The position numbers and the translations under genes are program-made. DNA of 64,000 nt from [Ruminococcus] torques ATCC 27756. GTDB taxonomy: Bacteria; Bacillota; Clostridia; Lachnospirales; Lachnospiraceae. Position 1 is the first letter of the stretch; every line of letters starts with the position of its first letter. The stretch covers positions 1 through 64,000 of the forward strand of contig NZ_DS264365.1 of the NCBI RefSeq assembly GCF_000153925.1, given 5' to 3'. The notes under the pieces were generated by a model, which ran no database searches, was not told where the DNA came from, and saw only the letters and a program-made list of their open reading frames with translations. Shown piece by piece: positions 35,105-41,510 of this stretch.

Positions 35105-36505
35105 TTATAATTCCCTTCCATTTTTAGCTATTACATTTTGATACCAGCCAAAACTTTTTTTCTTCCAACGCTTTAACGTTCCGCTTCCGTCATCATTTCT
35201 ATCTACATAAATCATCCCATACCGTTTACTCATTTGGGCCGTAGACGCGCTCACAAGATCAATACATCCCCAAACCGTATATCCCATAACATCGACGCCG
35301 TTTTCAATCGCCTTTTCCATTTCCGCAATATGTTTTCGTAAATACTCTATCCGGTAATCGTCGGCAATTTCCACGCTTCCGTCCTCTTTATGAATCGGAT
35401 AATCTTTCGCTCCAAGTCCGTTTTCGACAACAAACAACGGTTTTTGATATCTTTCCCAGTATATTTCCAATACATATCTCAATCCTTTCGGATCTATCTG
35501 CCATCCCCATTCGCTCGATTTCAACATCGGATTAGGAACGCCTCCCAATATATTTCCTTCACCTCTTCGCATCTTTTCCGAATGTGCAGTCGCGCACGCG
35601 CTCATATAATAACTCAATGAAATAAAATCTACCGTCTCTTTCAAAACTTCCCGATCCGCTTCTTCTATCTCTAAAGAAATTCCATGTTCTCTAAAATATC
35701 TCAGCGCATATCCCGGATATTTTCCCCGAACATGAACGTCTGCAAACATTAAGCTTTTATGCTCCTGTTCTTTTGCCGCCAGGACATCATCCGGTTCCGG
35801 AGTCAGCGGATATACAGGCACGCTTAAAATCATACACCCGATTTTAAAATCCGGATTAATTTTATGACCGATCTTCACTGCCCATGCGCTTGCAGTCAGT
35901 TCATGATGCGCCGCCTGATAAAGCTGCTCTTCCGTCAGTTCATCTTTCGGAGTCATGATCGCTCCACTCATAAAAGGAGACTCCAGTATTGAGTTGATTT
36001 CATTAAATGTAAGCCAGTATTTCACTTCATCTTTATATTCTTCAAATACTGCCTTTACATATGTTTTATAAAAATCAATCATCTTTCTGCTGCGCCATCC
36101 ATCGTATTTTTCCGCTAAATACAACGGAGTTTCGTAATGCGACAATGTCACAAGCGGTTCGATTCCGTATTTTCTGCATTCTGCAAACAAGTTGTGATAA
36201 AATTCTATTCCCTTCTGATTCGGTTTTTCTTCATCTCCACGCGGAAAAATCCGACTCCATGCAATCGATGTCCGAAAAACTTTAAATCCCATCTCAGCCA
36301 TCATTTTTAAATCTTCTTTATACCGATGATAAAAATCAATTCCTTTTAACTTTAAATTCTCTTTCACCGGCTCTTCTGTCATTCCACCTTTCAACCCTTT
36401 CGGAAGTACATCTTGTATGGAGATTCCTTTTCCCTCTTCATCAAACGCACCTTCGCATTGATTTGCGGAAACCGCTCCGCCCCAAAGAAAATGTTCAGGA
36501 AACAT
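35105..36505 (-). CDS. GH1 6-phospho-beta-glucosidase
   Basis: The ATG at 36505 (SD AAAGGGG) gives a typical 466 residues. TIM-barrel motifs are [16 protein letters not shown], the acid/base E169 (TFNEIN) and the nucleophile E361 (VVENG). Near the C-terminus [12 protein letters not shown] (residues 419-430) carries the Ser-x-Lys-x-Tyr phosphate-recognition set of BglA/BglB-type phospho-beta-glucosidases. It splits glucoside-6-phosphates delivered by the PTS of the same operon into glucose 6-phosphate and aglycone. Last gene of the operon. Confidence 0.92.
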
Positions 36506-36530
36506 ATCCACATCGCCCCTTTCGCCAAAG

Positions 36531-38486
36531 TCATAATCCCGCGCTAATATAATATCCGTCCTCCATCGCATTCCATACCGTTCCTACCCGATTTGCATCG
36601 CCGATTATATTCGTGTCCTGCGCGATTCCGAAAAATGTATTCGCCTCATCGGTTCTAGCCTTCATCCCTGCCGCAAAAATAATTGTATCTGCTTTTATTT
36701 CAAATTCTTCCCCATCCTTAGATGCCGCAGTTACGAATCCCTCCTCTATCGAAACACATCGAGTCTCTGTCAGCACGGTTAATGTTCTGCATTTTTCCAT
36801 TTCTGTTTTTAAAGCAGTTTTCATAATATCATTCAAAGTTCGGTTCAACACTTTTTCAATTTCAAGAATCGTCACCTGTTTTCCTTTTCTGCTCAATTCA
36901 ACCCCCAACTCACATCCGATAGATCCGCCGCCTATAACGACCACATTTTCACCAATCTTTTCCTGATATTTATAAGCTTCTATGCATGTAAAAACATGAT
37001 CATTCTTTTCTGTGCCCGGAAGATTTAACTGTATCGGATAAGCTCCAAGTGCAAGGATCAGACTGTCAGGACTCAATTCCTTAACCATTTCCGGTGTAGC
37101 GGTTACATTTAATCTTACTTCTACTTCCGCCTTTTGAACTTGAAGGATCAAATAATCTTTCAATCTCTTTAAATCCTGCTTTACCTCATCATACTCTGAG
37201 CAGATCAACTGTCCGCCCAATTCCCCTTCTCGTTCTAAAAGAATCACCTGATGTCCTCTTCGTGCCGCCGTCAACGCAGCCTGCATTCCGGCAGGACCTC
37301 CGCCGACTACTACTGTCTTTTTCTTTACAGACGCTTCCGGCAGTTCATTCGGGACGCGATCTTCATGCAAATATCTCGGATTCACCGAGCAGCACGGAAC
37401 TGTATTGAGCCCGACATGCTTTCTTCGTTCTTCCTCTGTTTTATATTGATATGGATTATAACAGTTCATGCATCTGATACACGGAACAATATCTTCCGAT
37501 CGGCCTTCCCATGCTTTTTTCACCCACCATGGATCGGCGATCAACTGACGTCCTATGACAACAGCATCGGCACATCCGTCCTCAAGTATTTCTTCCGCCT
37601 CTTCCGGAGTCATAATCCCTCCCACTACCGCTACAGGTATCTTCACTTTTTCTTTCACAAGTTTTGCCATTTTCGCATTGATTTTATGCGGTGCATATGC
37701 CGTAGGCGACATGTAGATTTTTGTACGATTATCTATTTCCACTCCGCAGGAAATATGAACCATATCTATCTTATCTTCAATCCTTTTTATAAATTCCGCA
37801 ACTTCATCAATCTCCATGCCGCCTTCTATATGCTCTTCTCCACTTATCCGCATATCCAACATATAATCTCGTCCAACCGCCTGCCGCACCCTGTCTACGA
37901 TCATCATCGGGAATTTTATTCTATTTTCAAAGCTCCCCCCATACTCATCTTTTCTTTTATTAAAATACGGAGAAAGAAATTGTGCCGGAAGCCATCCGTG
38001 TCCGAAATGAAGCAATACCCCATCAAACCCATACTCTTTTGCGTCACATGCCGACTTTGCAAATTTATCTGCGATTTCATCCATCATTTTTTCATCCATA
38101 GCCCGCACCTCTGTTCCATCGTTTCTTACGAAGGATACCGGCCCTATGGCATAATCACCTTCTTCCACAACCGCAAACTGACCGCAGTGACACAATTCAA
38201 ACTCCGCTTTCGCACCGCGCTGTCTGATCAATGAAACTTCTTCTCTGACTTTAGCCGCCTGGAATAAATCTGCAAAACAATACGTTCCCGGAGTTAAACG
38301 CATACGCGTATCATCCACCGATCCGCTCGTTCCTCTGATAATCATCCCTATCCCACTTAATGATTTATCTGTATTACTTCCCAATGGAGCCGAAATAATC
38401 CTGTTTTTCAAAACAATTTTGTTCACTTTCAACGGTTGAAACAAAAGTGGATATTTACATTTTCCCCTTTCCCTTTCAATATTCAT
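36531..38486 (-). CDS. Old-yellow-enzyme family NADH:flavin oxidoreductase (enoate/dienoyl-CoA reductase type)
   Basis: The 651-residue three-part enzyme starts with an FMN TIM barrel (about 10-330; [20 protein letters not shown]). A [4Fe-4S] segment (C336, C339, C342, C366) and FAD/NAD-binding Rossmann domains follow ([20 protein letters not shown] at about 392-411; [20 protein letters not shown]). This is the layout of 2,4-dienoyl-CoA reductase, clostridial enoate reductases and the bile-acid enzymes BaiCD/BaiH. It reduces C=C bonds conjugated to a carbonyl with NAD(P)H. It is inserted between the PTS permease (two-base gap) and the GH1 gene, so it probably acts on a glucoside aglycone. The substrate is not known. 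Confidence 0.88.
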
Positions 38487-38488
38487 TT

Positions 38489-41323: not shown

Positions 41324-41403
41324 TTTTATTCCTCCAAAAGCAAAACGTTTATTACCATTTGGCTGGTTCTTTTACCGCTAATATTAACTCTTAATATCAA
41401 AAA

Positions 41404-41458
41404 AACCAAAATCAGCTCTGCTGATTTTGGTTTAGCCTGCATTACCAGTGACATTCCC
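41404..41458 (-). promoter_or_regulatory. RAT antiterminator site overlapping a terminator before EIIA
   Basis: On the minus strand 41458-41429 matches the ribonucleic antiterminator of LicT/BglG systems (GG.AATGTCACTGG.AATGCAGGC..AAACC skeleton). Its end overlaps a perfect 13-base terminator stem, AACCAAAATCAGC/GCTGATTTTGGTT (41432-41404), followed by T7. Bound antiterminator would prevent the stem and allow read-through into the operon. Confidence 0.85.
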
Positions 41459-41481
41459 AATGTCCCTCTTTAATTAAATTC

Positions 41482-41510
41482 ATTATAACAACAACATATA
41501 ATATTGTCAA
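41482..41510 (-). promoter_or_regulatory. Consensus promoter of the beta-glucoside operon
   Basis: TTGACA (41510-41505), exactly 17 bases, and TATAAT (41487-41482): a perfect sigma-A consensus promoter about 25 bases upstream of the RAT. Such strength suits an operon controlled mainly by transcription termination. Confidence 0.88.

Follow-up and report, generated by a model that had tools for sequence, protein, structure and literature searches.

Beta-glucoside phosphotransferase system (PTS) operons of the bgl/lic type, controlled by LicT/BglG antitermination, form a known class. Fe-S flavoenzymes such as BaiCD/BaiH, bilirubin reductase, daidzein reductase and Escherichia coli FadH pass electrons from NAD(P)H through FAD and an Fe-S cluster to FMN, according to the sections of PMC11574389 that cover them. 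A survey of gene clusters of such enzymes in Clostridia distinguished 849 families, 80 of which were predicted for saccharide catabolism (PMC7371122, Pascal Andreu et al. 2020). PTS-reductase coupling is not described in the main text of that survey, from which the terms PTS, phosphotransferase, glucosid, glycosid and sugar are absent, and its supplementary tables or figures may hold such clusters; in the searchable part of the open-licence literature there seems to be no description of an operon joining a PTS or a 6-phospho-beta-glucosidase with a reductase of the old yellow enzyme (OYE) type. Such an operon occupies positions 41510 to 35105 (minus strand) of a 64,000-nucleotide stretch of the gut bacterium [Ruminococcus] torques ATCC 27756 (contig NZ_DS264365.1, assembly GCF_000153925.1; hereafter the window), where a promoter, genes for PTS enzymes IIA (EIIA) and IIBC (EIIBC), licT, a two-domain Fe-S flavoenzyme and a glycoside hydrolase of family 1 (GH1) form one unit. 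We consider it fairly probable that the operon is under LicT control and couples a PTS of the beta-glucoside type to its own NAD(P)H-driven Fe-S reductase, which would saturate a C=C bond of the imported conjugate or of its aglycone.

Pfam and NCBIfam scans confirmed the EIIA, EIIBC, OYE-type flavoprotein and 6-phospho-beta-glucosidase of the initial annotation, all on one strand. EIIA (41323-40820; PF00358, 3.3e-49; TIGR00830 above cut-off) is of the Glc family and is followed by the licT/bglG antiterminator gene (39989..40818), a beta-glucoside-like EIIBC (39847-38489; PF00367 and PF02378), the 651-residue OYE/FadH-type enzyme (38486-36531; PF00724 and PF07992), which combines an FMN barrel, a four-Cys cluster motif and an FAD/NAD(P)H domain, and the GH1 gene (35105..36505; PF00232, 1.9e-135). 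All three PTS domains (EIIA, EIIB, EIIC) of the Glc superfamily are thereby represented. The GH1 product scores 637.3 bits against the 6-phospho-beta-glucosidase model NF007356 (cut-off 623), both GH1 matches having been scored on a longer 488-aa form; we prefer the start at ATG 36505 to the listed ATG 36571, which overlaps the OYE gene. The best NCBIfam model for EIIBC is the beta-glucoside one, TIGR01995, at 388.6 bits (cut-off 614.7), and the protein scores below the cut-off of every substrate model listed. The promoter behind which the initial annotation had placed the whole unit is there (TTGACA-17-TATAAT with TG ahead of the second hexamer, 41510-41482; sigma-70 type, 12 of 12 consensus matches, use predicted), but two terminator-like hairpins separate it from the enzyme genes. 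Likewise, three of the gaps, given earlier as 1-70 bases, measure 1, 2 and 25 bases (the last with GH1 from ATG 36505), but the licT-EIIBC gap spans 141 bases and contains a terminator when EIIBC begins at the preferred ATG 39847, and shrinks to 69 bases only with GTG 39919.

Evidence that ties the reductase to the importer comes from relatives. A search for related loci yielded 15, and the order EIIA-LicT-EIIBC-OYE recurs in six loci besides the window (L001, L003, L005, L006, L172 and L173), which argues that the association is beyond chance. Nine loci carry the reductase at 58% identity or more; L002 starts inside its OYE gene, and in all eight whose upstream side can be assessed (the six, L004 and the window) PTS genes lie directly upstream, bearing out the initial annotation's expectation that the gene keeps its place beside the PTS. 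The PTS belongs to two families, assigned by EIIA and EIIC with EIIB genes left unlabelled and checked on L004 (Lac) and L008 (Glc): a Glc-type EIIBC accompanies the OYE in L001, L003, L005-L009, L011 and L012, and Lac-type EIIA/EIIC genes in L004 and L052-L060. Among these, L004 has EIIA-EIIB-EIIC followed by two OYEs, L007-L009, L011 and L012 have one or two OYEs, with GH1 in all except L009, and the OYEs stand in tandem in L004, L008, L009 and L011. The window reductase also belongs to a group with a shortened alpha1 region (13-14 residues in 24 rows, versus 26-32 in full-length rows). Same-strand PTS genes lie within 6 kb of 23 of 23 assessable OYEs of this group (41-79% identity, the window not counted) compared with 3 of 34 full-length OYEs (L052_1219, L073 and L076), in a count that leaves out the fragment L002 and six OYEs fetched for their GH1 genes (L092, L102 twice, L103, L113 and L130). 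L014, L015_975 and L032 had no matching open reading frame (ORF), and L130 and L131 were chosen outside rank order. Because the pairing recurs in other bacteria, importer and reductase probably act on one imported compound.

With its OYE and Pyr_redox_2 domains and four cluster cysteines (C336, C339, C342 and C366, invariant in 18 sequences), the reductase falls within the Fe-S flavoenzyme superfamily. Its AlphaFold2 model, built with 18 sequences (pLDDT 88.3, pTM 0.87), has 2-naphthoyl-CoA reductase (NCR; 6qkg) and the 2,4-dienoyl-CoA reductase FadH (1ps9) as best PDB fold matches and shows helix in the alpha1 region at residues 38-42 only. The motif HFGHGWL retains both histidines of classical OYEs (His160 and His163); its general form HF(G/A)HGW(L) is typical of the shortened-alpha1 group, and F161 is found in 24 of 24 members versus 7% of 43 others. 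As the active site keeps this His-x-x-His pair, which we take to hold carbonyl substrates in OYEs, reduction of a conjugated C=C in the glucoside or its aglycone is plausible. The protein scores far below the cut-offs of the BaiCD equivalog (392.7 of 825 bits) and of the long form of bilirubin reductase (326.8 of 750 bits).

In a tree of 67 rows, the window reductase groups with L001 and L003 (100/99), next with L004 (100/99) and next with L005 and L006 (100/100). The 24 short-alpha1 rows and the full-length, long-branched L076 form one branch (95/84), with no short row elsewhere, to which L010 from Treponema is sister (100/100 for 26 rows). Since L076 falls inside the branch, the tree requires two changes and a single origin of the short form is not supported. 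The L076 unit (7824-12610) has the order OYE-LicT-EIIBC without GH1, and its OYE has lost the His-x-x-His pair, so that the reaction may differ.

OYEs commonly act on electrophiles, and the window enzyme could instead detoxify electrophilic or quinone aglycones freed by glucoside hydrolysis, with no gain of energy. XenA, an OYE, appears among the fold-search rows in complex with 8-hydroxycoumarin (2h8z), and the PTS-reductase pair is carried by Robertmurraya and Paenibacillus, which presumably live with oxygen; a general detoxifier, however, need not be bound to one transporter kind, and the tandem OYEs suggest a pathway step, so that we regard detoxification as unlikely. Esculetin reduction was considered as well. 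A metallo-beta-lactamase-fold gene near the OYEs of L070 and L010 might encode a lactonase; the window operon showed no such gene, and this lead was set aside. Searches of the open-licence literature, as far as its text was accessible, gave nothing useful on esculetin or coumarin reduction, and the portion available of a report on flavonoid conversion by Clostridium butyricum (PMC11868195) does not mention the PTS. The L070 region (3810-12407), from the same genus as the window, holds a major facilitator superfamily sugar transporter, a metallo-beta-lactamase-fold gene (a second was seen by eye), a nucleoside-hydrolase-like gene, an OYE, a GH1 gene (70% to that of the window) and a ROK kinase. 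In L010 (2643-10770), which also has a metallo-beta-lactamase-fold gene, genes for an alpha-L-rhamnosidase and a transporter permease flank the OYE, and the locus looks like a rhamnoside unit.

Control of the operon is predicted from two elements of one kind, which we take to be ribonucleic antiterminators (RATs). Upstream of EIIA a leader RAT, the presumed LicT target, overlaps an intrinsic terminator (41403..41460; GTCACTGGTAATGCAGGCTAAACC from 41452, terminator stem 41433-41403), as is characteristic of a LicT/BglG-controlled operon. A second RAT-like element with a terminator occupies the licT/EIIBC gap (39892..39955; GTCACTATTA from 39948, stem 39930-39892 of 16 pairs), and the unit is thus interrupted by two terminators with LicT-type targets, neither of which had been annotated before. 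Both folds beat all 200 shuffles (z -4.53 for the leader and -3.39 for the second element), and the leader pattern, derived from the window and its relatives, occurs once in the window. The leader RAT is present in 7 of 7 window-type loci inspected, five of them aligned; a search with GTCACT found the second element in four of the seven (window, L005, L006 and L173) and did not find it in L001, L003 and L172.

The antiterminator gene, previously read as one gene, is not a single open frame. ATG 40818 opens 59 codons, the frame changes by -1 after an A-run near 40714, and the rest lies in a 229-aa ORF (40678-39989) in which the Pfam scan found PRD matches only and no RNA-binding domain. The break falls in the CAT RNA-binding part and leaves both PRD stretches intact, and the window accordingly holds no intact antiterminator with CAT and two PRDs. 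The frames are unbroken in L001, L003, L005, L006, L172 and L173, unbroken frames being the measure used for relatives, among which the CAT domain scan covered L076. The change of frame could mean that the assembly is wrong here, that the regulator is dead or that frameshifting takes place. The region of the break (40700-40730) does contain an A-AAA-AAG heptamer in the appropriate frame, but L001 carries the identical heptamer within an unbroken frame; programmed -1 frameshifting is therefore disfavoured, and we prefer a plain frameshift or an assembly error. If LicT lacked its RNA-binding part, most transcripts would be expected to end at one of the two terminators (41433-41403 and 39930-39892).

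Several observations weigh against a working importer-reductase operon as proposed above. With licT disrupted in the assembly, this genome may not express the operon. The Tyr of classical OYEs and FadH, which we take to be the proton donor, is replaced by Trp165. PTS genes lie near four of the six full-length OYEs selected by GH1, and once these six are restored 7 of 40 full-length OYEs are near PTS genes; the Fisher test of short versus full-length coupling (p 4.9e-13) overstates the case, since its rows are relatives of one another, collected through their similarity to the window protein. In a second sample of 294 genomes from the order of G860, with at least 19 matches at E ≤1e-150, 16 of them new, PTS genes were seen in 10 of the 18 stretches read (L172-L175, L177, L179, L180, L185, L187 and L188) and not in the other eight. 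In three of those eight (L176, L178 and L189) the contig is short or stops at or close to the OYE gene; the remaining five (L181-L184 and L186) are true exceptions, shortened-alpha1 OYEs in another setting, with no PTS in stretches of 13.8-17.9 kb. Finally, among the assessable loci at 58% identity or higher, the window alone carries GH1 immediately after the reductase gene.

The 18 stretches hold 25 OYE ORFs, of which 19 have a short alpha1 (13-18 residues), five a long one (28-29) and one is cut off. With those five exceptions on one side and long forms beside PTS genes on the other (L177, L180, L187 and L188), a strict rule that a short alpha1 means PTS was rejected. A divergent regulator gene stands between the short-form OYE and the PTS in L180 and L188, and a second short-form OYE lies more than 6 kb from the PTS in L187. 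Taken across the loci compared, the coupling holds firmly within the closer clade and less strictly among more distant relatives. Four OYE genes, a Lac-type PTS and GH1 share one region in L177 (424-15317). In L060 (347-4429), two proteins of 353 and 356 aa without a Pfam match at 1e-4 are encoded beside a PTS-linked OYE.

The initial annotation had also expected a fixed order EIIBC-OYE-GH1, and this failed in the closest relatives. No GH1 gene was seen by the OYE in L001, L002, L003, L004 or L172, where other glycosidase families were not searched for; GH1 follows after other genes, 3.3 kb and 2.3 kb downstream of the OYE, in L006 and L173; and the L005 contig ends 86 bases beyond the OYE, too soon for assessment. 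The glycosidase thus lies outside the conserved core, and the reductase is tied more closely to the importer than to GH1. The order EIIC-OYE-GH1 is found in more distant Lac-type loci (L052-L056, L058 and L059); in each of L052-L059 the OYE comes after Lac-type PTS genes and has GH1 behind it or nearby, the next GH1 piece in L057 being a 90-aa fragment. The imported compound might then be another PTS sugar with an unsaturated group, to which the GH1 of the window would be incidental, a possibility in keeping with L001, L003, L004 and L172, which lack GH1 beside the OYE within the search just described, and with the EIIBC scores. We think it improbable, given that the best EIIBC model is still the beta-glucoside one and that 8 of 10 Lac-type loci (L052-L059, not L004 or L060) and four of five Bacillales or Paenibacillus loci have a GH1 gene within 6 kb.

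Seen from the GH1 side, the window protein has 13 relatives in the genus at 64-71% identity, four of which (G005, G007, G023 and G038) have an OYE of another subfamily next to them or close by; no OYE was seen in the stretches fetched for the other nine. Less similar OYEs of the same genus lie directly by GH1 (L070, L071, L074 and L103), and some also pair with PTS genes (OYE-EIIA-LicT-EIIBC-GH1 in L130 and OYE-EIIBC-GH1 in L102). Such pairings argue for a common function, an argument weakened by the GH1-centred fetching that supplied L102, L103 and L130.

The operon is sporadic. Within the genus, at least two of 58 genomes have an ortholog of the reductase, namely that of the window and G033 (79%), and matches at E ≤1e-125 are present in at least 4 of 397 genomes of the family and 8 of 398 of the phylum, the window's own included; all these tallies are limited by E-value, and those for family, phylum and second sample are lower bounds, in which the best three or four candidates per genome were scored. 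In the window the operon lies between an upstream GTPase gene, which we take to be hydF (the names of tyrS and similar neighbours are likewise our assignments), and the S10 ribosomal operon downstream. Of the 58 genus genomes, 33 yielded an S10 gene, and 20 of these places were fetched with their upstream side. Ten of these sibling stretches have hydF and S10 at a distance of 0.4-1.4 kb, in some with a small ORF and in none with an operon gene between; hydF was not seen in the other 10, and in L139 the S10 gene is hidden by an overlapping ORF. L132, L134 and L140 carry a different EIIA/EIIBC or EIIBC upstream of tyrS. Because sibling hydF-S10 sites lack the operon genes and the 20 stretches yielded no OYE, the operon was probably gained in this genome. 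Such a history would also suit an accidental neighbourhood, the OYE gene having been carried along with a PTS operon and having no functional tie to it, as would five deeper shortened-alpha1 relatives without PTS; yet the coupling recurs across two PTS families and several gene orders, and the OYE gene begins 2 bases past the EIIBC end, which together make mere accident very improbable. The leader of the downstream S10 operon, an S10-Clostridia ribosomal leader (Rfam RF03136, 89.6 bits), was located at 34842-34936.

In the mechanism we favour, EIIA and EIIBC would import the glucoside and 6-phosphorylate it. NAD(P)H would supply FMN with electrons by way of FAD and the 4Fe-4S cluster, and a hydride from FMN would reach a C=C conjugated to a carbonyl, either in the aglycone or with glucose-6-phosphate still attached. 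GH1, an add-on in this genome, would free glucose-6-phosphate, and elsewhere other enzymes would presumably perform the hydrolysis. Gene content and order, leader elements, motifs for cofactors and active site, and the repeated coupling to two PTS families are read from sequence; activity, substrate, order of steps and benefit, whether NADH re-oxidation or detoxification, we infer. Use of the aglycone as electron acceptor, as the initial annotation had proposed, is possible. Tentatively, we also entertain that the reductase acts on the intact glucoside-6-phosphate before hydrolysis: the loss of most of helix alpha1 could open the flavin pocket to a bulky phospho-sugar, and the glycosidase would be dispensable or reduction itself would help to release glucose-6-phosphate, making this a reduce-first route for plant glucosides. 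If phospho-glucosides are indeed its substrates, the customary sequence, in which deglycosylation precedes reduction, would not apply to this system. The link of the clade to phosphorylating sugar importers limits the substrate candidates to PTS-imported glycosides, so that a small set of plant glucosides, each also as its 6-phosphate, would suffice to address the question.

Compared with the Fe-S flavoenzymes treated in the relevant sections of PMC11574389 (BaiCD/BaiH, bilirubin reductase, daidzein reductase and FadH), the window reductase shares the two-domain build and the cluster cysteines but has a shortened alpha1, and it is set apart from BaiCD and bilirubin reductase by scores far below their equivalog cut-offs. 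Its cysteine spacing is C-x2-C-x2-C, as in many other OYEs compared, versus the CX2CX3C given in those sections, and the x23 before the last cluster cysteine is common to the window, L001 and L003. Like bgl/lic-type operons, the unit has EIIA, EIIBC, a LicT-type protein, a leader RAT with terminator and a GH1 6-phospho-beta-glucosidase; unlike them, it has a separate EIIA as first gene, a frameshifted licT, a second RAT and terminator ahead of EIIBC and an Fe-S flavoenzyme between EIIBC and GH1.

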